DNA of 64,000 nt from assembly GCF_000519265.1 (NCBI RefSeq), contig NZ_KI912608.1:2327313-2391312 (forward strand). The letters run 5' to 3'. This stretch comes from Desulfonatronum lacustre DSM 10312. GTDB lineage: Bacteria > Desulfobacterota > Desulfovibrionia > Desulfovibrionales > Desulfonatronaceae. The notes beneath the pieces are model-generated. The model was given only the letters and a program-made list of their open reading frames with translations, was not told the DNA's origin and ran no database searches. This document shows, one piece after another, positions 42,732 through 55,614 of the stretch. The translations under genes and the position numbers were made by a program. Every line of letters starts with the position of its first letter. Positions within the stretch are counted from its first letter, which is position 1.

Positions 42732-42883
42732 GATCGTGCCTCTCGAAGGTTATTGTCAGACATATGGTGAATGGGTTACAGGGTTACTAAGTTAAGAGAA
42801 AATTTGCCCCGCGGCAAGCGACTCGCTCATTTTGCCAATTATATCGAGAGTGAATTGCCAACATCTTCAAGGAGATCATGTTC

Positions 42884-44125
42884 GTGAGAATTCACCATAT
42901 TCTTGTCATGGTTGCCGTGACCGGCCTTCTCCTCTCCTGTTCCCAAAGCGTCCATGACGACTCGCCCCTGAACGATGTTCCTGGTGTGAACGAATCGGAA
43001 ATTTTGATCGGCTCGTCGTTGGCGCTCAGCGGGCATGCCGGTTTTTTGGGAACACAGACCCTGAACGGGGCGTTGTCCTACATCAATCATGTCAACGAGC
43101 AGGGCGGGGTGCATGGACGCAAGATTCGGGTGATCGCCTATGATGACGGATATGATCCGCCAAGATGCCTTGCGAACACGCAGAAGCTGATCGTTGACGA
43201 CCAAGTTTTCGCGCTCTTCAGTTACGTCGGCACTCCGACCACTGTCAAGATTCTCCCATTGATCGAGCAAGCTCAAATACCCCTCCTGGGAATCTTCAGC
43301 GGGGCGAACGCGTTTCGGGAACCGTTCAATCGGAATATCGTAAATATTCGGGCCTCGTACTATCAAGAAACTCAGGAAGTCGTTCGCCATTTTGTCGAAG
43401 ACCTCGGCCTGACCAGGATCGCCGTATTTTATCAATATGACGCGTATGGTTTCGATGGATTGAAAGGAACCGAGCTGGCCCTGCGGGCGTATGATTTGGC
43501 GCCGGTGGCCAGGGGCAGTTACACCCGCGGCACCCAGGACATTGATGAGGGCTTGGAGGCCATCATGGAATCCCAGGCCGAGGCCGTGATCATGGTCGGA
43601 ACCTACGACGCCTGCGCGAAGTTCATCAAGCAGGCCCGTTCTCGCGGGTTCTCTCCACTATTTCACAACGTTTCGTTCGTGGGATCCGAGGAATTGGCCC
43701 GCATCCTGGGCAAGGACGGAGACGGGGTCATCATCTCTCAGGTGGTTCCTCCTCCGGACTCGCTGGAATCGCAAGCCTTGCTGTGGGGCGTGGTGGAGTA
43801 TCTGGAGCGGCACAAACGTGCCTTTCCGGAGGATCAGCCCAACCTTGTGGCCCTGGAAGGCTACATCAACGCCAAGGTCTTGGTGGAGGGGCTGCGACGG
43901 GCTGGACGCAACCTGAGCAGGGCGCGCTTCATCGACGCCATTCAATCCATCCAGAACTATTCCCTGGGCATCGCCAACACCCTGTCTTTCGGGCCGACGA
44001 ACCATCAAGGGTTGGAGCGGGTTTACTTCACGATCATCCAGAATGGACGGCTGGTGATCTTGACCGATTGGAACCGGCTCACGGCGGAAGTACGGCATGA
44101 TCCGTCGGCGACTTGTTCGGAATAG
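42884..44125 (+). CDS. Periplasmic ligand-binding lipoprotein (branched-chain amino acid type)
   Basis: The protein is a type I periplasmic binding protein of about 413 residues. The signal peptide ends in the lipobox LLLSC, anchoring it to a membrane. IGSSLALSGHAGFLG and NGALSYINHVNEQGGVHGRKI are the classical Leu/Ile/Val-binding signatures. GTG 42884 is preferred over ATG 42878 because AAGGAG is then nine bases away. No permease or ATPase gene accompanies it. It stands directly before a histidine kinase, so a sensory role (ligand reporting to the kinase) is more likely than uptake. That is inference. Confidence 0.85.
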   Translation: MRIHHILVMVAVTGLLLSCSQSVHDDSPLNDVPGVNESEILIGSSLALSGHAGFLGTQTLNGALSYINHVNEQGGVHGRKIRVIAYDDGYDPPRCLANTQKLIVDDQVFALFSYVGTPTTVKILPLIEQAQIPLLGIFSGANAFREPFNRNIVNIRASYYQETQEVVRHFVEDLGLTRIAVFYQYDAYGFDGLKGTELALRAYDLAPVARGSYTRGTQDIDEGLEAIMESQAEAVIMVGTYDACAKFIKQARSRGFSPLFHNVSFVGSEELARILGKDGDGVIISQVVPPPDSLESQALLWGVVEYLERHKRAFPEDQPNLVALEGYINAKVLVEGLRRAGRNLSRARFIDAIQSIQNYSLGIANTLSFGPTNHQGLERVYFTIIQNGRLVILTDWNRLTAEVRHDPSATCSE

Positions 44126-44130
44126 ACCCC

Positions 44131-46158
44131 ATGCCGGATACGAAACGGTTCGGATCGACCCCGAGGAGCATGATGAGTTCCTTGCGAGAAGCCAGCCTCA
44201 AGAACAAGATATTTTTCTCCACCCTGGCCATGGTGTTGGTCATCAGCGCGGCCATCGCCCTGTTGGCGAGGTGGATTCTGATCTCCAGCCTGGTCAATGA
44301 ACTGACCGGTCGCGGCATCGCCATCGCTCAAAGCATTGCGGACCAGGGCCGCGGCTACGTGTTGACCCGGGACCACCCGAATCTGGTCAGTCTGATCTTT
44401 GACGCGGCCCAACTCGGCGAGCGGCGGATGCTCGTGGAATACATCTTTATCCTGGACGATGAGCGAAACGTCCTGTCGCATACCTTCATCCGTCCGTTTC
44501 CGGAACCGTTGATTTCCGCCAACCCCATTCCAGCGGACAAGCAGTACAGCGTGACCAAGTTGATCATCGACGACGCCTCGGTCTACGACATCGCCGTGCC
44601 GATTTGGGAAGGCATCTACCCCATCGGCACCGTTCACGTCGGTTTGAAGCAAAAACACATCGACCAGTTAATCGGCAAGTTGCGCATTACATTCCTTGGC
44701 TTTATATGCGCAATTTTCCTTATTATTTTTCTTGTCAGCCATAAACTCTCCAAGTACGTGACCAGATCGTTGACCCAGTTGACCAAACTGGCCGACGAGA
44801 TCACCCGGGGCAACCTGGACATGAAACCCTTGGGACTGGAGGATGCGGACAAGGAGGAGCACTGTCCGGCCTACTACAACATGGACCTGCCCTGTTGGTA
44901 CGTGGACAAGACCCTGGGCCGGGTCAGCCCCGACTACACCCCGGAGAAACCCGCCTACTGCACGGATTGCGTGGTCAAAAAGAAAAAGTCCGGCGACGAG
45001 GTGGAACAGCTGGCGGATTCCTTCAAGCACATGGTTCGCAGCATCAAGCTCTACCGCAACCGAGTCCGGGAGTCCGAGGAAAAATACCGCTCCCTCTTCC
45101 GAAGCGGTCCGGCCCCGATTTTCGTGCTCAGCACCCGCACATTCCGAATTTTGGACGCCAACCCCAGCGCCTTGAGCACGTATGACTATTCCAAGGAGGA
45201 GATGCTGAAGACGTCGTTTCTGGAGCTGGCGCCGGAGTTCAAGAATCGGTTTACCGCCTATTTCCAGGACAATCCTGGCGCTGAAAGCTTCATCTATCCC
45301 AAGGCCATGCATTTCAAGAAAGGGGAAGTGCCCTTTTACGTGAACGTGGTGGCCTGCAAAACGCGCTACCTGGAACGCGACGCGATCATCGTATCCACCT
45401 CGGACATCACGGAAATGCTGGAAAAAGACGCCCAGTTGATCCAGGCCAGCAAAATGACCAGCCTGGGCCAGCTTTCCGCGGGGATCGCCCATGAACTGAA
45501 TCAACCGTTGAACATGATCAAGATGGGCAGCGAATTCCTGGACATGGCGGTGAATGAGCAAATGCCGCTTTCCAACGAAAGTTTGTGCGAAATCAGCAAT
45601 GAAATGAGCGCCCAAGTAGACCGGGCAACGGAGATCATCAATCATTTAAGGGAATTCGGCCGTAAGTCGGACTTCTCCAAGGAGCCCATCGACATCAACA
45701 AGCCGGTGCGCGGAGTGATGTCCATCATGGCCCATCAGTTGAGCCTGCAAAACATCGTTGTTACCCTCGACCTGGGCGAGAACCTTCCACCGGTGTCGGC
45801 TCATGTGAATCGTTTGGAACAGGTCTTGTTCAATCTGGTCACCAATGCCAGGGATGCGATTCAAAGCCGCTACAAGACCCTGGAAGAGGAAGGACGCCGG
45901 GAGATCGTGATCCGCTCCTTCCTGGATCAAGACCGGGTTTGTCTGACCGTGTCGGATACCGGGTGCGGAATGAGTCCGTCCGTGGCGGAAAAGATTTTCG
46001 ATCCGTTTTTCACTACAAAACAGACGGGGATGGGCATGGGGCTTGGGCTGTCCATTTCTTACGGCATCATCAAGGATTATGATGGGACTATCGACATTAA
46101 GAGTGAGGAGGGTGAAGGTACGACCTTCGTGCTTTCGTTTCCCGTTACTCAGGAATGA
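44131..46158 (+). CDS. Membrane histidine kinase with HAMP, four-Cys insert and PAS
   Basis: The domain order is two membrane helices (IFFSTLAMVLVISAAIALLA and ITFLGFICAIFLIIFLVSH) bracketing a periplasmic sensor of about 150 residues, HAMP, a cysteine insert (Cys245, 255, 277 and 280, with HCPAYYNMDLPCW and YCTDC), PAS (about 320-430), dimerisation helix with His454 in AGIAHELNQPLNM, and ATPase with NLVTNARDA and GMGMGLGLSISYG. The insert resembles the two-CW type metal or redox motif of other deltaproteobacterial sensors. The start is uncertain (TTG 44113, ATG 44131, 44170 or 44173). It is in the same operon as the binding protein and receiver-STAS gene. Confidence 0.9.
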   Translation: MPDTKRFGSTPRSMMSSLREASLKNKIFFSTLAMVLVISAAIALLARWILISSLVNELTGRGIAIAQSIADQGRGYVLTRDHPNLVSLIFDAAQLGERRMLVEYIFILDDERNVLSHTFIRPFPEPLISANPIPADKQYSVTKLIIDDASVYDIAVPIWEGIYPIGTVHVGLKQKHIDQLIGKLRITFLGFICAIFLIIFLVSHKLSKYVTRSLTQLTKLADEITRGNLDMKPLGLEDADKEEHCPAYYNMDLPCWYVDKTLGRVSPDYTPEKPAYCTDCVVKKKKSGDEVEQLADSFKHMVRSIKLYRNRVRESEEKYRSLFRSGPAPIFVLSTRTFRILDANPSALSTYDYSKEEMLKTSFLELAPEFKNRFTAYFQDNPGAESFIYPKAMHFKKGEVPFYVNVVACKTRYLERDAIIVSTSDITEMLEKDAQLIQASKMTSLGQLSAGIAHELNQPLNMIKMGSEFLDMAVNEQMPLSNESLCEISNEMSAQVDRATEIINHLREFGRKSDFSKEPIDINKPVRGVMSIMAHQLSLQNIVVTLDLGENLPPVSAHVNRLEQVLFNLVTNARDAIQSRYKTLEEEGRREIVIRSFLDQDRVCLTVSDTGCGMSPSVAEKIFDPFFTTKQTGMGMGLGLSISYGIIKDYDGTIDIKSEEGEGTTFVLSFPVTQE

Positions 46159-46172
46159 ATGGAGGCTGGCTG

Positions 46173-46901
46173 ATGCGCAAAATACTCGTTATCGACGATG
46201 AAAAGCCGACCCTGTCCATGTTTCGCCTGTTTTTGAACGCCTACGGATTTACGGTGTTCACCGCGGAGAACGGCGAGGATGGGTTGGTCGTTTTCCAAAA
46301 AGAGCAACCGTCCATCGTGATTACGGACATCAAAATGCCCGGGATGGACGGCCTGGAGGTCCTCAAGCGCATCAAGGAGATCAATCCCCTGGCTGAAGTG
46401 ATCATCATCACCGGACACGGGGACCTGGATCTGGCCATCCGTGCGCTGAACATGAACGCCACGGACTTCATCAACAAGCCGATTCAGAAAGCCGCCCTGG
46501 ACCAAGCCTTGCGACGCGCCGAGGAACGGCTGACCATGGCCGAAAACGAGGAAAGGGAGATTTCCTGGGTCCAGGAGGACGATATGGCCTGCATCGACAT
46601 CCGCGGCAACGTCAACGCCGCCTCCGAGCCGGTGCTATTGGAGGCTTACGGTCACATCTCGGCCTGGAACGTCCCCAAAATTCTTTTTCGCTTCAACGAG
46701 AACGCCTCGATCAACGGCGCCGGCATCGCCGTTCTGATCCAGCTCCTGACGGAGAGCAAGCAGCGCGGCCAATCCGTGATCCTCACCGGTCTGGCCGAGA
46801 ATTTTCGCAAGGTGTTCGAAATGGTCGGGGTGACCAAACTGGCCCGGATCGTTCAGGATGAAGCCGAGGCGCGCTCCGTGTTGAGCGGCATGCCGGCTTG
46901 A
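46173..46901 (+). CDS. Response regulator with receiver and STAS domains
   Basis: The N-terminal receiver (1-120) is complete: acids D8-D9, phospho-acceptor Asp52 in VITDIKMPGMDG, and Lys102 in FINKPI. The C-terminal half (about 130-240) is a STAS domain like anti-sigma-factor antagonists: DDMACIDIRGNVNAASEP, then ASINGAGIAVLIQLLTES. At the site that anti-sigma kinases phosphorylate (DSSG), it reads NGAG, so Ser phosphorylation is lost. No DNA-binding domain exists; output is probably by protein contact with a partner switch. ATG 46173 with GGAGG gives 242 residues, 14 bases after the kinase gene. Confidence 0.9.
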   Translation: MRKILVIDDEKPTLSMFRLFLNAYGFTVFTAENGEDGLVVFQKEQPSIVITDIKMPGMDGLEVLKRIKEINPLAEVIIITGHGDLDLAIRALNMNATDFINKPIQKAALDQALRRAEERLTMAENEEREISWVQEDDMACIDIRGNVNAASEPVLLEAYGHISAWNVPKILFRFNENASINGAGIAVLIQLLTESKQRGQSVILTGLAENFRKVFEMVGVTKLARIVQDEAEARSVLSGMPA

Positions 46902-46934
46902 AACCACTTTCACGTAATCGTCGGAGAAACAAAT

Positions 46935-47498
46935 ATGCGCGGATTTACAGGCAGATACTTGGTTCTGGTATGGTTGTCGCTGGCGTTGCTCGTCGGCCAG
47001 GCTTTCGCCGCAGGACCTCTGGGCGTCGGTGAACGACATCCGGAGATTTTGGCCTTTACGTTCCCCGCTCCGGAGGTCCCGGACCATCGAATTTACCTGA
47101 GCCTCGAGGAGGAACAGGACAGCTTGGCTTTGGCGGACATGGAGCGGGACCTCTTTCTGATTGAGATCGTCGGCGTTTACTGTCCTATCTGCCATAACCA
47201 GGCTCCGGACATCCTGCGCCTGTACCAACGAGTTCAGCGCGACGCGGAAATGGCGGGCAAGGTAGCCATGGTCGCCGTGGCCGTCGGAGCCACGCCGATG
47301 GAAATCGCGCACCTTCACCGGACATGGCGCTTTCCCTTTCCCATTCTTCAGGATGGGGACTATGCCTTGCACAAACTGATCGGTGAACCGGACACCCCGT
47401 ACACCTTTATCCTGGATCGTGACGGCTCCGTCCTCTACACTCACCTGGGCCGCACGGATATCGACAGTCTCTTCAATCGGCTCAAACAGTTACCCTGA
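46935..47498 (+). CDS. Exported thioredoxin-like protein (redoxin, TlpA/ResA type)
   Basis: The 187-residue protein has a signal peptide ending AFAA (about residue 26). The mature part has the thioredoxin fold with Cys83-Pro-Ile-Cys86 in VGVYCPICHNQAPDIL and the cis-proline segment PDTPYTFILDRDG. Such proteins reduce or oxidise periplasmic thiols. It lies between the receiver-STAS and rhodanese genes in one orientation with a gap of about 70 bases. A membrane partner could be the MauE-like protein encoded downstream. That link is inferred. Confidence 0.88.
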   Translation: MRGFTGRYLVLVWLSLALLVGQAFAAGPLGVGERHPEILAFTFPAPEVPDHRIYLSLEEEQDSLALADMERDLFLIEIVGVYCPICHNQAPDILRLYQRVQRDAEMAGKVAMVAVAVGATPMEIAHLHRTWRFPFPILQDGDYALHKLIGEPDTPYTFILDRDGSVLYTHLGRTDIDSLFNRLKQLP

Positions 47499-47570
47499 AT
47501 CTTGTTTTCCTGATTCCAGACCACCGATTTCCCCAGCGTCTCGCGCCGGGGATTCGGTCGAGGATACGAC

Positions 47571-49331
47571 ATGGATCAGCGCCGGGCTCCGAACCCCTCA
47601 GCGGGACCGCCTTTACAGCCCCCTGTAGAGGCTTCCAGAGAGTCATCCGGAGAGCGTCGTGCCTTTCATCTGGACGCCTTGTTCGAGACGGTCAGCGAAC
47701 TGAGTCGGTTGACCGACCCGAAGGAGGTCATGGAGACTTTCGTCCTGATGAGCATGGGGGCTCTGGGAACGGCTCAGGGCTTGCTCGTTGCCCAGGATCG
47801 CCGTTCAGGCCGGCAGCATCTCGTCTTGCGCGGACTGCCCGAGTCCGACAAGGAACGGCTGCCCGATGCAGTTCAGTCCGTATCCGCCAAAATCCACAAC
47901 GAAGGCGAGATGCTGTCCCGGCAGGTTCTGGTCGTGGTGATCAACGAGTCCCCCGAAAAGCCCGGTCTGCCCGAGCCGTTGCGCGTCGTGGTGGAGTGGT
48001 ACCTGGACGAGCATCGTTTCGGAGTCTTGGGCTATGGCCCCAAGGTCAACGGCTCGGCCTACGACCACCAGGATGAAGATTTCGTGCTGCAACTGGTCAC
48101 GGCCTTTATGGACGCCCTGGCCTCCGCAAGCGTGAATGAGACCATCCGCGGCCTGAACGAAGAACTGCAAGCGAGAAACACCGAGCTTCAGGGGGCGTTG
48201 CTGGCTTCCCAGGACATCCAGACCCGCCTGGATCGCCGTTACTTTCACTTCAAGTCCATCTGCGACACCACTCGGGAACTCAGCGGAAACCTCCACGCCA
48301 AGACCCTGCTCTCCTCATTTCTCCTGTCGGTCATGGGCACGTTCAGCGCCCAACAGGGGTTCATCGTGCTGTGGGATCGACGTGACAACCGGATCGAAAT
48401 CGTGACTCGAGGGTTCGGCGACGATACTTCTCCGGTCTTTGATGCCCAGCGCTTGGATGCCGTCTTCCGTTCCCTGCTGCATCCTCCGTTTGTCCCGGCC
48501 CAGGGAGAAAAGCACTATCAGGTGCTGACCCAAGACGAACTCCAGGCCTTGGAATTGGCCGAGACGTCGCAAGTCGGCGCCGCGTTCCTGTTGGATGACA
48601 ATTGGTATGGGCTCGCGGGAATCGGAAACAGTCTTGCCCGGTCCGAGGACGATCAAGGGGAGCGGGAATTGTTGCCCGCCCTGCTCCAGGGCTTTCTGGT
48701 CAGCCTGGGCAATGCCCTGGCCTTTGAAACCATCCAAAAACTGAACAGCGACCTGTTGCGCAAAAACGCCGAACTGCGCCAAACATTGGACGAACTGCAA
48801 CAAAGCCGCCAGACCATCAGCCTGCTGGAGGCGACCGCCAATCGCTTCAGCTCCTTGCTGCGCTCCGAAACCCTGCGCATTAAACGGGTAAGCCTGTTCG
48901 ATTGTCTGGCTTTGGCCTTGGTCAGTCTGGTCCTGGCCTTGGTCTTCAACGCCTCCAGTCCCGGCGGCATTTCGCTGTTGCCCGAAACCTGGGGTCAGCC
49001 TCGGCCCGATTATATCGACGTGGCCTGGGCCAAGCTCAAGCATGAGTCACAAGGCGCGCTGTTTTTAGACGCTCGGCCCACGGAGTTTTACAATCAGTCG
49101 CGTATCGTCGGCGCGGAGAATCTGCCTTTGAACCTGTTCGACTTCGTCTATTCCATGCGCTTCGCCATGCTGGATCCGGAAAAGGACGTTGTCGTCTACG
49201 GCCGCAACATCAGTAGAAGATATGACGAACAGGTGGCGGCCAAGCTCAAGGAGCGCGGCATGGTCAATGTGCGGGTCATGGAAGGTGGCCTGCGGCAATG
49301 GCAACGCAACGGGCTTCCGGTGGAGCCATGA
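47571..49331 (+). CDS. GAF-GAF-transmembrane-rhodanese protein
   Basis: The 586-residue protein starts with two GAF-like sensory domains (about 35-190 and 215-390), separated and followed by coiled-coil stretches (LNEELQARNTELQGALLAS; NSDLLRKNAELRQTLDELQ). One membrane helix (FDCLALALVSLVLALVF) then leads to a C-terminal rhodanese domain (about 485-586; ARPTEFYNQSRIVGAENLP). The active-site cysteine position reads VVVYGRNISRR, with Gly where Cys is expected. If the GAF domains are cytoplasmic, the rhodanese fold faces the periplasm. No kinase or output enzyme is present. Its role is probably scaffold/sensor. Confidence 0.82.
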   Translation: MDQRRAPNPSAGPPLQPPVEASRESSGERRAFHLDALFETVSELSRLTDPKEVMETFVLMSMGALGTAQGLLVAQDRRSGRQHLVLRGLPESDKERLPDAVQSVSAKIHNEGEMLSRQVLVVVINESPEKPGLPEPLRVVVEWYLDEHRFGVLGYGPKVNGSAYDHQDEDFVLQLVTAFMDALASASVNETIRGLNEELQARNTELQGALLASQDIQTRLDRRYFHFKSICDTTRELSGNLHAKTLLSSFLLSVMGTFSAQQGFIVLWDRRDNRIEIVTRGFGDDTSPVFDAQRLDAVFRSLLHPPFVPAQGEKHYQVLTQDELQALELAETSQVGAAFLLDDNWYGLAGIGNSLARSEDDQGERELLPALLQGFLVSLGNALAFETIQKLNSDLLRKNAELRQTLDELQQSRQTISLLEATANRFSSLLRSETLRIKRVSLFDCLALALVSLVLALVFNASSPGGISLLPETWGQPRPDYIDVAWAKLKHESQGALFLDARPTEFYNQSRIVGAENLPLNLFDFVYSMRFAMLDPEKDVVVYGRNISRRYDEQVAAKLKERGMVNVRVMEGGLRQWQRNGLPVEP

Positions 49332-49807
49332 CGAAAAATCCGCTGGTCAGACTACTGACCCATGAGTACGTGGCCCTGGCACTGCGATTGTATATCGGCG
49401 GGCTGTTCATCTACGCGAGCATGTACAAGATCAGCTATACCGCTGAATTCGCGGAAACCATCGCCAGCTATCAGTTGGTCCCCTACTGGGCGGTGAACGT
49501 GCTGTCCGTGTTCATGCCCTGGTTCGAACTGGTTTGCGGCGTCTTATTGATCATCGGTTTCCGGGCCAAATCCGCTGTGGTGCTGATCGGCGGAATGCTG
49601 GTCATGTTCACCATTGCCGTGGTGGTCAACCTGCTGCGCGATTCGCCCATCCCCTGTGGTTGCTTCAGCAGTGTCGAGGACCCGATATCCTGGTGGACGG
49701 TGGTCCGCGACCTGATCTGGGTGGCCATGACCGTCCACATCTACTACTTCGACAAGATTTTGCACCTGGAGAACCATTTCACCTCCAGGATTGAAAAAAT
49801 TGCCTGA
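49328..49807 (+). CDS. MauE/DoxX-like redox-associated membrane protein
   Basis: The 159-residue protein has four membrane helices. A conserved PCGCFSS motif (Cys110, Cys112) follows the third, as in MauE and related proteins that pass electrons to periplasmic thiol proteins. ATGA overlap joins it to the rhodanese gene, so the two are translated together. ATG 49328 is chosen because it gives this overlap and has GGAG upstream. It may recycle the redoxin encoded two genes upstream. Confidence 0.85.
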   Translation: MTKNPLVRLLTHEYVALALRLYIGGLFIYASMYKISYTAEFAETIASYQLVPYWAVNVLSVFMPWFELVCGVLLIIGFRAKSAVVLIGGMLVMFTIAVVVNLLRDSPIPCGCFSSVEDPISWWTVVRDLIWVAMTVHIYYFDKILHLENHFTSRIEKIA

Positions 49808-49824: not shown

Positions 49825-50031
49825 CATTTTGGGGATCATCCAAAATCTCGATAATTTCAGAGTGGCAGATTGCAGTATATTCAAGAGAAACCTCCAGTGT
49901 GGGCCAGCAGGCATCGAAATCGCTATCGAAATCGGAATCGAAATCGGAATCAGAAAGTTACCAGAAATCGATTTCGATCACGATTTCGATTTCGATTCAA
50001 AGCGCCCGTAGAGCGGGAACAATTCTGCCCA
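49825..50031. repeat. Dispersed ~200-bp element with hexamer hairpin, copy C
   Basis: This is the second copy of the element at 2107-2304, in the same orientation. It keeps the 5' unit (AAAATCTCGATAATTTCAGAG, with one or two differences) and GTGGGCCAGCA. Here the left arm has two more six-base units (GGAATCGAAATC repeated), so arm length varies by whole units. The right arm, loop AAAGTTACCAG and tail GCGCCCGTAGAGCG are nearly unchanged. It starts 17 bases after the MauE-like gene stop. Confidence 0.85.
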
Positions 50032-50036
50032 TCCCC

Positions 50037-50078
50037 CTGCCCTCTGACTTCTGACTTCTGACCTCTGACTTTTGTCTT
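50037..50078. repeat. Heptamer tandem repeat (TCTGACT type)
   Basis: Four near-perfect units of TCTGACT/TCTGACC follow the hairpin element and end at the ribosome site of the small lipoprotein gene. They are the reverse-complement class of the CAGGAGT array at 15829-15862. Confidence 0.75.
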
Positions 50079-50093
50079 CCGGCGAGGTGTTCC

Positions 50094-50411
50094 ATGCTCA
50101 GATTACTTTGTCTCGGTGTAACAAGCTTGGCTTTTTTCCTGATCACTGCCTGCTCCGACCCGTCGCACCTGGTGGGCAAGTATCAAAGCCCTTCCGAGGC
50201 GGAGCATTTTGTGTTGCTGGACTTGCAGCCCAATGGTCAGGGGACCTGGGAGACGAATTTCGACGTGGTATCGTTTCGCTGGAAGCAGCGCGGGGGTGAG
50301 ATTTGGCTGCATACCCGAACCGGAGGCGTGATCACCGGGGACATCGTGGAGGCGACCCGGCTAAAAGTTGACATTCCCGGCGTCGGGGTGATCGTGCTGG
50401 AGAGGCAATAA
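50094..50411 (+). CDS. Small lipoprotein of unknown function
   Basis: The 105-residue protein has a lipoprotein signal peptide with lipobox LITAC. The mature part, about 85 residues, is predicted beta-rich (GKYQSPSEAEHFVLLDLQ, GTWETNFDVVSFRWKQRGG). The size and pattern recall small lipocalin-like or META-like periplasmic lipoproteins, but no family is recognised. It is flanked by two hairpin repeats. A short terminator (TGGGATGCGTTCCCA plus T7, 50475-50496) lies within the second. Confidence 0.72.
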   Translation: MLRLLCLGVTSLAFFLITACSDPSHLVGKYQSPSEAEHFVLLDLQPNGQGTWETNFDVVSFRWKQRGGEIWLHTRTGGVITGDIVEATRLKVDIPGVGVIVLERQ

Positions 50412-50419
50412 AAAGCGTA

Positions 50420-50530
50420 ACTACTCAGCACCGAGTAGTGCCGTTGCCGGTGTCGGTATCGGGATCGAAAACGCTGGGATGCGTTCCCATTTTTTTCTGT
50501 TCCGACTTCGATACCGATACCGATTGCCGG
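50420..50530. repeat. Hexamer-unit hairpin element with embedded terminator
   Basis: The left arm (50447-50470) has TCGG/TATCGG units; the right arm (50504-50529) has CCGATA units that pair with it over about 20 bases. Inside lies a short hairpin with T7 (50475-50496), a likely terminator of the lipoprotein gene. A 7-bp hairpin ACTACTC/GAGTAGT precedes it at 50420-50439. The design matches the 7.4-kb element. Confidence 0.6.
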
Positions 50531-50627: not shown

Positions 50628-51353
50628 CTATCCGAAAATCCGTCTGGCCGGCGAGACTGCCTTGGCCAGAGCGGCTTTACGGCTGAGTACAGGGATGTCC
50701 GCGGATGCCACGGCATACCTGAAGTACTCCCGAGGATTGTCCTCGGTAAGGAAAATCACCCGGACGTCGTTGGGATCGGTCAGCGCGGCGTTGGGTTTGT
50801 ACTTCTTGACTTCTTCCAGCCGCTTTTTAGCGATTTCCAGGATTTCATCCGAATCCCCGAACTGCATGGTTCCGGTGGGACAGCTCAGCACACAGGCCGG
50901 GAGCAAACCGTTCTGAACCCGGTCGATGCACATGTCGCACTTGGTTTGGATTTTGGTTTCCTCACTCCAGCGAGGGATGTCGTACGGACAGGATTCCCTG
51001 ATCTGCTGGCCGTCCAGGTTCTTGGTCCGTTCCGTGAACAGGACCGCCCCGGTCTCCTGATCATGCAGAATGGCCTGATCGTCGTCATAGTCGCCGACCA
51101 TCTTGCAGGGTGGATAGACGCAGTGCCGGCACTGATCCGGAAAAAAGTACCACTGCTTGAACTTCTCACCGTCCATGGCCTCGGTCATTCGTACCAGCTT
51201 ATAGGTGATGAAGGACAGGTCCTTGGGGTTCTGAAACGAGCCCCAGTTTCTGGTTTCTTCCGCCGGGAGTTTCTTCCACTGCTTGCAGGCCACTTGGCAG
51301 CCCCGGCAGGCCGTGCACTTGGTCAGATCGACAAAGAAGCTTTTACCTTGCAT
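50628..51353 (-). CDS. fdhB: Formate dehydrogenase iron-sulfur (beta) subunit
   Basis: It carries electrons from the catalytic subunit. The 241 residues hold the cysteine clusters of a four [4Fe-4S]-type ferredoxin subunit: CTACRGCQVACKQW, CRHCVYPPC, a single CPYD, and CDMCIDRVQNGLLPACVLSC. No membrane helix is present, so it pairs with a soluble periplasmic catalytic subunit. AAGGAGG precedes the ATG. It starts 13 bases after fdhA. No gamma (cytochrome b) subunit or cytochrome c3 follows, and electrons probably go to the periplasmic cytochrome pool. Confidence 0.92.
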   Translation of the reverse strand: MQGKSFFVDLTKCTACRGCQVACKQWKKLPAEETRNWGSFQNPKDLSFITYKLVRMTEAMDGEKFKQWYFFPDQCRHCVYPPCKMVGDYDDDQAILHDQETGAVLFTERTKNLDGQQIRESCPYDIPRWSEETKIQTKCDMCIDRVQNGLLPACVLSCPTGTMQFGDSDEILEIAKKRLEEVKKYKPNAALTDPNDVRVIFLTEDNPREYFRYAVASADIPVLSRKAALAKAVSPARRIFG

Positions 51354-51366
51354 ATCGCACTCCTCC

Positions 51367-54300
51367 TTAGGCCTTGCGGATGTTGACCATGAATGTCTTG
51401 GTCTCGGGAATGAAGGTGTTCGGGTCGCCTACGGACGGCGTCAGCAGGTTGGCCGAATCGCCTCCATCACGAGGATGCACCCATCCGTAGTGCCATGTGG
51501 TGCCGACCATGTGAATGGTCTGGCCCATGGATTTTATCGGCTGTAGGCGAGGCGTGACGATGGCCACGGCTTCGATCTTGCCGCGCATGTTTTCCACGAT
51601 GACCTTGTCACCGCTTTCAATGCCGCGCAGCTTGCCCAGCTCGGGATCAATTTCCACGAAGTTCTGCGGCATGCATTCCAACAGCCAGGGCGTCCAGCGG
51701 GTCATGACCCCGGACTGCCAGTGTTCGGTGACCCGATAGGTCGTGCCCACGAAGGGATACCGCGGATCGCAAACCGCGCGTTTGATCGCTTCACCGGCGA
51801 ACTCCAGGGCCGTGGGATTGTGCAGACGGCTGGAGAAGGGATGCTCCTCAAAAGGACATTCCATGGCTTCGAAGTGCTCGGGGAAAGGACCGTCGGCCAT
51901 CCCCGGACCGAACAACCGGCCGTAGCCTTCCGCGGTCATGATGAAGGGATGCCGCTCGCTTGGTGCCCATCCTCCATCCGGCACATCGCCGACCCACTTG
52001 CTGCCGTCCCAGGCGATGACAGCCTTATGCGGCGCATAGGGCTTGCCTTGCGGATCGCAAGAGGCCCGGTTGTACACGATGCGGCGGTTCAGGGGCCAAG
52101 CCCAAGACCATGCCGGGAAGATGCCGATGTTGGCCTGCATTTCAGTCTGGGTCTTGTCGCGGCGGGCCATCATGTTGCCGGCTTCGGTGTAGCAACCGCT
52201 GTAGACCCAGTTGCCGCAGGCCGTAGAACCGTCGGCCTGGAGAGCGGTGAAGTTGGGCACCTGGGTTCCGGCCTTGTGGGTGGTGTCCCCAATCTTCACG
52301 TCCTTGACGAAGTAGCCGTTGAGCAGCTTGGCCACTCGATGCGGATCGAAATCGTGCGGGAACTTCTTGTCCGGATTGGTAACGCCAGCGGTGTTGAAGT
52401 TCATGATCGGATCCGGGAAAGCACCGCCTTCTTTTTCATACAGAGCGCGGACCCTGCGCACCAACTCCAGGGCCATGTCGCCATCCGGGATGCAATCGCC
52501 CATGGGCTTGGGACCGGCATAGCGCCACTGCACCCAGCGTCCGGAGTTGGAAATGGAGCCTTCCTTTTCGCACCAGACAGCCGGAGGCAAAACAAAGACC
52601 TCGGTCTTGACCTTGGCCGGGTCCATGTTCGGGCCTCTCCAGAAGGAGGCGGTTTCATTGTCGAACAGGTTGACCACTACCAGCCAGTCCAACTGGGCCA
52701 GAGCGTTTCTGGTCTTGTTGGAGTCCGCACCGCAGGCCGCCGGGTTCTGGCCCCAGGCAAAATAGCCTTTGAACTTGCCCTGAAGCATGTGGTCGAAGAG
52801 CACCAACCAGGAAGCGTTCTGGCCAGCGTCCAGCTTGGGCATGTAGTTATAGCTTTCGTTCGGGTCCTTGTCCGGATACATGGCCTTGAGCAGGCTGGCC
52901 ACGTACTTGGGTCTGTTCTGCCACCAGTTGGCGCTCTTGGGGTCGTTGGACACCGGAGTCGTGGCCTTCTGGTAGTCTTCGAAAGTGGCCATGGCAGCCC
53001 GGGGTGTGGGGTTATAGCCGGGAATAATGTGGAACAGCAGAGCCTGGTCAGTGGAACCCTGAACGTTGGACTCGCCGCGCAGGGCGTTCACCCCGCCACC
53101 GGCCATGCCCATGTTGCCCAACAGGAGCTGGATCATGGCCATGGTTCGGATGATCTGTGCGCCGGTGGTGTGCTGGGTCCAGCCCATGGCGTACATGATG
53201 GTCCCGGACTTGTCCGGAGCGCCGGTGGCCGCAAAGGTTTTGTACAGGGCCAGAAGCTGGTCCTGGGGTGTACCCGAGGTTTTTTCGATCCGGTCCAGAT
53301 CGTAGCGCTCGTAGTGCTTTTTCATCAACTGGAAGACGCAGTTGGGATCCTTCAGGCTGGGATCCTTTTTGGGGATTCCCTGCTCGTCCATCTGGAAGGT
53401 CCAGGTGGCCTTGTCGTAGGAAGCCGTCTCGGGATTGAAGCCGGTGAACAGGCCGTCCTCGAAACCGAAATCGGGATTCACCAGGAAGGCGGCGTTGGTA
53501 TAGTTGACGACGTAGTCCTTGAAGTACAGTTCGTTGTCGATGATGTACTTGATCATCCCACCCAGGATCGGGATGTCCGTTCCCGAACGCATGGTCACAT
53601 AGAGGTCGGACTTGGAGGAGGTCCTGTTGAAACGAGGATCCACGTTGACCAGGGTCGCGCCTTTTTCCTTGGCCTTCATGACCCATTTGAAAGAAACGGG
53701 ATGGTTTTCCGCCGGGTTGGCGCCCATCATCAAAATGCAATCACTGTTCATCAGGTCGATGTAGTGATTGGTCATCACACCGCGTCCGAACGACTCTCCC
53801 AGAGCCGCTACAGTGGCGCTGTGTCAGATCCGGGCTTGGTGTTCTATGTACACCAAGCCGAAGCAACGCATTAAGGAGGAGATGTACCAGCATTCCTCGT
53901 TGTCTAGAGCCGCTGAACCGGTATGGGCGATGCCGTCGGTGCGGTTGACCACTTGGCCTTGGGCGTTCTTGGCGACGAACGTGGCGTCACGGGCGTCCTT
54001 GACCTTGCGGGCGATCTGGTCCAGAGCCCAGTCCCAGGTCTTTTCCTCGAATTTGTCGGAGTTGGGAGCGCGGTAGAGAACCTTGGTCATCCTGTCGTTG
54101 TTTTCGACGAGCTGCCACAGGGAAGCACCCTTGGCGCACAAGGAGCCTTCGTTGATGGGATGGTCCGGGTCGCCTTCGATGTTTACGGCCCGGTCTTTGT
54201 AGGGACCGCTCTGGGCCGTATGCACGATCAGCCCACAGCCCACGGAACAGTAGCAACAGATTGAGGTTGTTTCCTTGGCCTCCTTCAACTGGAGCAATTG

Positions 54301-54405
54301 CGCCTTAGCCACGGTGGGCTTGAGGTCGAACCCCAAGCCACCGAAGGCCAGCGCCGAGCCGGCCACGGCTGAAAATTTAAGAAAATTCCTGCGGTTAATC
54401 TGCAT
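51367..54405 (-). CDS. fdhA: Formate dehydrogenase alpha subunit, selenocysteine-containing, Tat-exported
   Basis: It oxidises formate to CO2 at a molybdenum or tungsten bis-pterin site. The frame is open across an in-frame TGA at 53824-53826, read as selenocysteine 194 (ARI-U-HSATVAALG), as in FdnG/FdhA. The full product is 1012 residues. The N-terminus has a Tat signal (NRRNFLKFS) and a [4Fe-4S] motif CCYCSVGC. The rest is the molybdopterin oxidoreductase domain. Without Sec insertion, ordinary gene callers split the gene into 193- and 803-residue ORFs. AAGGAGG precedes the ATG. It is the first main gene of the fdhA-fdhB unit. Confidence 0.95.
53784..53826 (-). promoter_or_regulatory. Likely SECIS element after the selenocysteine UGA
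   Basis: The bases directly after the TGA read CACAGCGCCACTGTAGCGG, then CTCTGGGAGAG. They align with the E. coli fdnG hairpin (short stem, then a GU-containing apical loop) and can fold into a stem-loop. Bacterial SelB binds such loops within about 40 bases of the UGA. The exact fold is inferred by analogy. Confidence 0.6.
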
Positions 54406-54442: not shown

Positions 54443-54670
54443 TCACTGACCGCGGATCTCTCGTGCCTGCATGACCAACAGATCGTATCCAGAGGCCCGG
54501 GGGATGCCCGTCTCGCGCTCGCTTCCCGGACGGCACCCAAGCCGGGTGCTCCGGAACGCCAAGAGCATGGCCTTCCGGACACGGCCCAGAATTTGGGTCG
54601 CGAACGGCCTGATCCGGAATCCCAGCCCGACGAAGGGAAGGTTTTCCGCAAAGGAAACAAGTTGGGACAT
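54443..54670 (-). CDS. Small unknown protein upstream of fdhA
   Basis: The 75-residue ORF begins MSQLVSFAENLPFVGLGF, with GGAG seven bases upstream, and ends 37 bases before fdhA. Residues are mixed hydrophobic and basic, with no membrane span and no motif. It may be a real first gene of the formate dehydrogenase operon or simply leader sequence. No homologous family is recognised. Confidence 0.4.
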   Translation of the reverse strand: MSQLVSFAENLPFVGLGFRIRPFATQILGRVRKAMLLAFRSTRLGCRPGSERETGIPRASGYDLLVMQAREIRGQ

Positions 54671-54756
54671 GGCGATCTCCATGAGGCTTTTTCTAGATTC
54701 GATCTGTTAGGTACCTCTTTGAAAGAAATCGCAAAAGCGGTCAATAAAAAAGCTGA

Positions 54757-55614
54757 TTACCCAAATTTTGGCACAAACCGGCAGAGCAGCCCAGCGGTTT
54801 CAGTGAAGATGTCCGCGTTGCGATGATTGTAGCGAAACTCCAGTTCCTTGACGTACAGGGGGAATTTTTCCGGAGAGAGGCCGCGGTAACGGCGGATCTT
54901 GTCCAGGAGGTAGGTGAGGAAGTCGGGGGAAGATCCGGGAGAGGGTGTTTGCGAAGGGAGGGTGAATTCCAGAAAACGGGGCGGAGGGGCTGTGGTGCAG
55001 AAGAGCAGGGCATGGTAGCGTTGGTACGGCGCGCTGAAGTAGGTCTTGCCCCAGTGCCCCAGTTCCAGACCGAAACTCTGGTGAAAGTGGAAGACCGTTT
55101 CAGGCCGCAGGCCGAGGACGAGGTCCACGAAGGCCACTCCGGAATGCTCAATGACCCCGAAAACCGGCGTGGAAAGCTTTGTGGATGGAACAACTCTCAG
55201 AACCCGACCGGAGGTGTTCAGCTCAATGCTCCGCTCCGGGCCGAAAAAATCCTTGGCGTCGATGGCGCTGGCCGCGATGGCGCAGCGGATGGTGGTCACG
55301 GCCTTGTACACCGTGTTATAGGCCAGATCCACCTCCTTGCTCATGGCCAGTACGGTCAGGTCCATTTCAAACAGCTTGATGATCCGTAGCCAATTCCGGC
55401 AGCTCAGGTCGCAGTTGTTGACCCAGCGTCCGCTGAAGTCATGGTAGGTGTAGGAACACTGAGCGCATCGGCGTCGGCGGTCGGTCAGAGGGTAGTTCTT
55501 ACGTTGCCTGCAGCGCGGGCAGAACCGCTGGTGGTTTTTCCAGCAAAATTTCAGCAGATAGCGACGAGCCGTGGATTCGCTTTTTATGTAGTGTTCATAG
55601 TCGATTAACCGCAT
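54757..55614 (-). CDS. IS1595-like transposase homologue, catalytic residues apparently lost
   Basis: The 285-residue protein has the N-terminal zinc ribbon (Cys32-x2-Cys35, Cys50-x2-Cys53) and helix-turn-helix (YNTVYKAVTTIRCAI) of the IS1595/ISXO2-like group. In active relatives the DDE site starts with VDE-TYFGG and continues VYTDGW/KY. Here the matching positions read SIELNTSG and KTYFSAPYQRY, without the two aspartates. The C-terminal ELEFRYNHR is kept. No terminal inverted repeats or target duplication could be found around it. It may be a decayed element or a domesticated protein. Confidence 0.75.
   Translation of the reverse strand: MRLIDYEHYIKSESTARRYLLKFCWKNHQRFCPRCRQRKNYPLTDRRRRCAQCSYTYHDFSGRWVNNCDLSCRNWLRIIKLFEMDLTVLAMSKEVDLAYNTVYKAVTTIRCAIAASAIDAKDFFGPERSIELNTSGRVLRVVPSTKLSTPVFGVIEHSGVAFVDLVLGLRPETVFHFHQSFGLELGHWGKTYFSAPYQRYHALLFCTTAPPPRFLEFTLPSQTPSPGSSPDFLTYLLDKIRRYRGLSPEKFPLYVKELEFRYNHRNADIFTETAGLLCRFVPKFG

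Follow-up and report, generated by a model that had tools for sequence, protein, structure and literature searches.

The seven genes A to G described here very probably constitute one conserved system that is genetically tied to FdhAB formate dehydrogenases of the disulfide-switch type. They lie in a 64,000-nucleotide stretch of DNA from Desulfonatronum lacustre DSM 10312 (the window), and the uninterrupted order A-B-C-D-E-F-G on one strand is found at 44 other loci (49 before the removal of five duplicates) with median domain-to-domain gaps of 0-35 nt, an arrangement that is not due to chance. As to its function, the locus may well encode a periplasmic thiol relay that a signal controls and that is dedicated to the selenocysteine-containing FdhAB, a reading that we hold at about an even chance.

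Gene content and conservation of the operon

An earlier note, made from the letters of the DNA, had described a cassette of six genes in one orientation. Open reading frames and domain matches agree with it that six genes are present, tightly packed on the + strand: A (42878..44125), a periplasmic-binding-protein lipoprotein presumed to be the ligand sensor; B (44131..46158), a histidine kinase; C (46173..46901), a receiver-STAS response regulator; D (46935..47498), an exported thioredoxin-fold redoxin; E (47571..49331), with two GAF domains, a coiled coil, a membrane helix and a pseudo-rhodanese; and F (49328..49807), a MauE/DoxX membrane protein. However, the unit is larger than was claimed, and a seventh gene, G (50094..50411, + strand), belongs to it; this gene for a small lipoprotein of 105 residues, assigned from neighbourhoods and predicted structure, follows F in nearly all relatives. 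The ATGA overlap that had been reported is real between E and F, with the F start at 49328, while the ATGA start at the B/C junction is probably not used because homologues of C begin at the position equivalent to 46173. F and G are 286 nt apart in the window, with short tandem repeats in the gap (ATCGAA, TCGATT and TCTGACT, at 49913-49997 and 50037-50079), and in relatives the median F-G domain distance is 0 nt. In a consensus scan of the window, the first hairpin on the + strand to carry a long T run, a terminator-like element, came 3' of G (50475..50489), and no sigma-70 promoter was found above chance. Convergent with the operon, and beginning 0.2 kb past G, are fdhB (50628..51353, - strand), identified by sequence as the gene for the iron-sulfur subunit of formate dehydrogenase, and fdhA (51367..54405, - strand), whose sequence and alignment indicate a selenocysteine enzyme with an in-frame TGA at 53824-53826.

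A is present in 123 of 199 Desulfovibrionales genomes. C adjoins A in 115 of these 123, with the order A-B-C throughout, and E adjoins C in 46/46 and A in 38/46. Homologues are thus strictly clustered rather than scattered, which supports the earlier proposal of a combined system in which periplasmic thiol proteins go with a STAS output. Named genomes were scanned with A, as no conserved stretch came out of aligning E, and the same arrangement was seen in Desulfobacterales, Syntrophobacteraceae, Desulfarculales and Desulfoferrobacter, so that A-B-C-D-E-F-G is seen in two deep lineages, Desulfovibrionales and Desulfobacterota. By its A gene the window, part of a genome of 3.76 Mb, is close to another Desulfonatronum locus (L101, 92% identity in A).

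The commonest reduced form of the cassette is A-B-C alone. C-D-E-F-G is also found as a unit of its own, together with a separate A-B-C that carries a second C (L068, L097), so that C acts as a hinge joining the sensor half to the E half. Each of these two loci holds two receiver-STAS paralogues, one with A-B and fdhAB and the other heading D-E-F-G; the paralogues represent a duplication that separated the system's two halves.

The sensor half

A Peripla_BP_6 match (E 8e-60) and a lipobox agree with A being a ligand-binding lipoprotein, and two of its cysteines are conserved, C97 in 37/37 homologues and C246 in 36/37. Among solved structures its closest relative is 4kv7 (E 1e-58), whose deposition names it a probable leucine/isoleucine/valine-binding protein. 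In the leucine-binding protein a glutamate (E226) binds the substrate ammonium, and the residue of A aligned at this position is Ser266, invariant in 19 homologues. Because the ammonium-binding glutamate is replaced by serine, A is unlikely to be a binder of branched-chain amino acids.

Domain matches (sCache_3_2, HAMP, PAS, HisKA, HATPase) give B the architecture sCache_3-HAMP-4Cys-PAS-HisKA-HATPase. The four-cysteine insert that had been noticed in the kinase consists of Cys 245, 255, 277 and 280 of the product from 44131 and is kept in 36/37 homologues. Its motif, C-x9-C-x21-C-x2-C, stands directly after HAMP and is possibly a metal or redox site.

The receiver-STAS assignment of C likewise holds, with matches to Response_reg and STAS. 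The phospho-acceptor Asp52 is kept in the homologue alignment, and by sequence the phosphotransfer residues are intact. The STAS loop, however, reads NGAG in nearly all homologues instead of DSSG; as a phosphorylatable Ser/Thr is absent from it, partner switching of the SpoIIAA/RsbV type was rejected for C. The genes for binding protein, kinase and regulator are adjacent and conserved together, as in a three-component system.

The pseudo-rhodanese protein and the thiol proteins

Pfam recognised no GAF domain in E. Despite this, the GAF-GAF-membrane-rhodanese architecture that had been read from the sequence is supported by a profile search (DevS GAF, E 0.0015), by an AlphaFold model and by Foldseek, which returned PDE5/6 GAF-GAF structures and phytochromes. 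The model consists of a GAF domain (residues 50-155), a helix, a second GAF domain (243-351), a long helix, a membrane helix (442-462) and a rhodanese fold (480-586), and its mean pLDDT of 82 with a pTM of 0.44 makes the domains reliable and their mutual arrangement not. The description of the last domain as a rhodanese stands for the fold and fails for the active site: Gly544, invariant in the family, occupies the position of the catalytic cysteine inside a conserved loop, VYG-R-x-x-S-R-x-Y-D, and in the homologue alignment E has no conserved cysteine. Sulfur transfer by E via the usual cysteine was rejected on account of this glycine, and on its residues the rhodanese is to be regarded as catalytically dead. 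The domain is presumably periplasmic, because positive residues precede the membrane helix.

The families proposed for the exported CxxC redoxin D and the MauE/DoxX protein F were both confirmed (Redoxin; PF07291, E 1e-27). The CPIC motif of D (C83 and C86) is invariant in 30/30, as is the C110-G-C112 motif of F, also in 30/30; the best NCBIfam match of D is ResA (E 4e-9). G is predicted to form a small lipocalin-like barrel (pLDDT 93), for which the Foldseek E-values were above 0.001. A G-like lipoprotein also stands alone upstream of fdhAB, without D-F beside it, in one genus (L223, L244).

Link to formate dehydrogenase and its disulfide switch

In at least 79 of 123 genomes no more than 12 kb separate A from fdhA, compared with about 2 of 123 expected by chance, as estimated from some 2.5 fdhA per 3.6 Mb genome; chance linkage was thus rejected. 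FdhA of the Sec type outnumbers the other type by 79 to 4 near A and by 38 to 20 elsewhere in the genomes with A. The fdhAB genes occur on either side and on either strand of the cassette, and the linkage recurs in Desulfobacterota.

In the window, C641, C670 and M198 of FdhA (numbered in the C-terminal ORF) align with C845, C872 and Met405 of the D. vulgaris enzyme, where C845 and C872 are the switch cysteines. According to two papers, the disulfide of D. vulgaris FdhAB is an allosteric redox switch: an enzyme that holds the disulfide is oxygen-stable and has almost no activity, and reduction makes it active (PMC11134731, PMC13397495). The 2026 review among them covers the switch and reductive activation and names the switch variant C872A, and in its accessible part the word 'thioredoxin' does not occur (PMC13397495).

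Among the genomes with A, 79 of 83 yielded an FdhA that carries the switch pair, versus 8 of 39 among those without A. Corrected for phylogeny at genus level only, the counts are 20:1 with A versus 5:8 without (p 5e-4, shared descent among genera ignored), and within one genus (g13) the switch FdhA is present in 9/9 genomes with A versus 0/2 without. Eight A-less genomes do have a switch FdhA; in two of them D and G immediately precede fdhAB, and in one G is present. At 46/61 A loci a CxxC redoxin is encoded within 13 kb of FdhA, compared with 3/40 loci where A is absent (p 7e-12, shared descent ignored). Among the A loci this is so for 43/52 switch FdhAs versus 3/9 non-switch ones (p 0.005, shared descent ignored); of the three redoxin-linked non-switch FdhAs, at least two share their locus with an adjacent switch copy (L092, L277). 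Some observations run counter to this association, however: the switch pair is present in FdhA without a nearby redoxin in 28 of the 40 non-A loci, nine A loci with a switch FdhA have no redoxin nearby, and six genomes, among the matches listed, have C-D-E-F-G apart from fdhAB.

Rearranged loci bear on which parts belong to the enzyme. In one genome (G092) the operon is split, with A-B-C-E at one locus (L065) and D-F-G beside fdhAB at another (L260). At L242 of another genome (G056) the order is D-G-fdhA-fdhB, after which comes a full DsbD (DsbD_TM, E 1e-45), and DsbD-like genes are also found near A in L111 and L130. Lineages that have no D-G carry a related exported redoxin directly after fdhB (L080, L174), after C (L266-L270) or between fdhAB and A (L261-L265). 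In the genus of L264, whose FdhA is nearly the same protein as the crystallised D. vulgaris enzyme, the order is fdhAB-redoxin-A-B-C.

These data weigh against the cassette being a general envelope-stress or redox sensor that is unrelated to formate dehydrogenase and merely inherited its neighbourhood by descent. Although 44 of 123 A genes, among the matches listed, have no fdhA within 12 kb, such a sensor would not account for fdhAB on varying sides and strands with a linkage that recurs in Desulfobacterota, for a split operon that regroups D-F-G with fdhAB, or for the presence of A tracking the switch FdhA between genera. We regard this explanation as very improbable.

The earlier note had treated the thiol proteins as a sensor input, and here the evidence points the other way: they look like an effector on formate dehydrogenase, because D-G or D-F-G occur beside fdhAB without the kinase. 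The same occurrence next to the enzyme without any sensor would also suit a maturation unit, in which D, F and G serve FdhAB or its cytochrome partner by disulfide isomerisation or heme-thiol reduction, as in MauD/MauE or ResA/CcmG, while A-B-C only set the expression of the block. The ResA match of D agrees with such a role, as do fdhD, a mobA-like gene and fdhE (named from sequence) beside D-G-fdhAB in L241 and L242. Against it, the redoxins are enriched at switch-pair FdhAs and not at formate dehydrogenases generally, as the counts above show for loci with and without A. We consider maturation rather unlikely.

A transposase-like gene upstream of fdhA

H (54757..55614, - strand) is a transposase-like gene of the IS1595 zinc-ribbon type and a candidate DNA-binding regulator. 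Its zinc ribbon matches with E 3e-10 and its DDE model weakly (E 0.09 over residues 241-262), D119, D164 and E257 are invariant in the homologue alignment, and no inverted pair that could represent IS1595-type terminal repeats flanks it in the window. H is probably a domesticated DNA-binding protein. A 17-nt inverted repeat between H and fdhA (54477-54708; 88% complementary, arms 198 nt apart) is a possible operator.

At 44 loci H immediately precedes fdhA and is read in the same direction. Across the 199 genomes, H and A are both present in 119, A only in 4, H only in 2 and neither in 74. In 34 genomes H is distant from both A and fdhA, or sits on a different contig, and is still present, so its co-occurrence with A is not just linkage. 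It had been stated that the cassette lacks a DNA-binding output; this is true of the operon itself, but in Desulfovibrionales H is a candidate for that output.

The distribution of H raises the possibility that the whole cassette is a transcriptional control, in which A, B and E sense ligand and thiol state, C passes the signal to H, and H sets fdhAB transcription, with the thiol proteins acting as inputs that do not touch the enzyme. Both the 119 shared genomes, with only 6 of 199 discordant, and the position of H at the 44 loci speak for this. On the other hand, a search run with no positive control did not find H in 12 Desulfobacterota genomes with A-B-C, several of which keep D-E-F-G, and D-G can stand beside fdhAB where there is no sensor at all. 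Overall, transcriptional control as the sole function seems unlikely.

Proposed mechanism and significance

The best mechanism, to which we would commit about half of our belief, has D, F and G working on the FdhA disulfide while A, B, C and E control them. A would report a periplasmic ligand, itself a guess, to the kinase B, which would phosphorylate C. The STAS domain of C might contact the cytoplasmic GAF domains of E, a contact that is again a guess, and E would relay its state across the membrane to the periplasmic pseudo-rhodanese. This domain would license F to feed electrons to the redoxin D, where the direction of electron flow is guessed as well, and D would reduce the allosteric FdhA disulfide (C845-C872 in D. 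vulgaris), so that the resting enzyme, protected from oxygen, becomes active. The lipoprotein G would dock the parts, and in Desulfovibrionales H would likely be a DNA-binding arm acting on fdhAB. The complete picture, a switch-dedicated activation system in which a ligand-sensing kinase and a STAS regulator control, by way of a membrane pseudo-rhodanese, an electron relay that resets the FdhA disulfide, with a domesticated transposase as the Desulfovibrionales DNA-binding arm, is offered tentatively, as a possibility that we regard as less likely than not.

A seven-gene operon of sulfate reducers that usually stands beside an oxygen-protected formate dehydrogenase is apparently undescribed. 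The earlier note knew of no described system with this combination, and our literature search, which covered few subscription papers, found no description of the cassette either; with the same scope, searches on STAS regulators in Desulfovibrio and on DVU0582-DVU0586 gave none. Among CO2-reducing biocatalysts FdhAB is a leading one, and the literature found does not say how the cell opens its oxygen-protecting disulfide. The locus provides named candidate genes for this step, including the arrangement in the D. vulgaris genus. If the proposal is true, it would show that a periplasmic metalloenzyme can be under post-translational thiol control gated by a signal, with a membrane pseudo-rhodanese acting as a transmitter.

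Comparison with known systems

Among the closest known systems is the disulfide switch of Nitratidesulfovibrio vulgaris FdhAB, with which the window FdhA shares both cysteines and the conserved Met; in their accessible parts, the papers on this switch name no partner protein or sensor, for which the cassette locus offers a candidate (PMC11134731, PMC13397495). The sensor half resembles the TorT/TorS/TorR three-component systems, which likewise combine a periplasmic binding protein, a histidine kinase and a response regulator. In contrast to these, the output of the cassette is a STAS domain without a DNA-binding domain, and its Cache sensor has a single domain. MauE and MauD are best known for the maturation of methylamine dehydrogenase, and the cassette shares with them a CxxC redoxin and a MauE-family membrane protein in one operon. 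However, it stands beside formate dehydrogenase, with a two-component system, a pseudo-rhodanese and a lipoprotein, and no mau or methylamine dehydrogenase genes were seen near it in the window, where its neighbours are fdhAB, or in the neighbourhoods of relatives. DsbD is a reductive conduit, and its relays with TlpA, CcmG or ResA likewise contain an exported thioredoxin-fold protein fed by a membrane thiol protein. The cassette differs from them in that a MauE protein replaces DsbD, in that it is tied by its genes to one enzyme, and in that it has a kinase and a regulator of its own.
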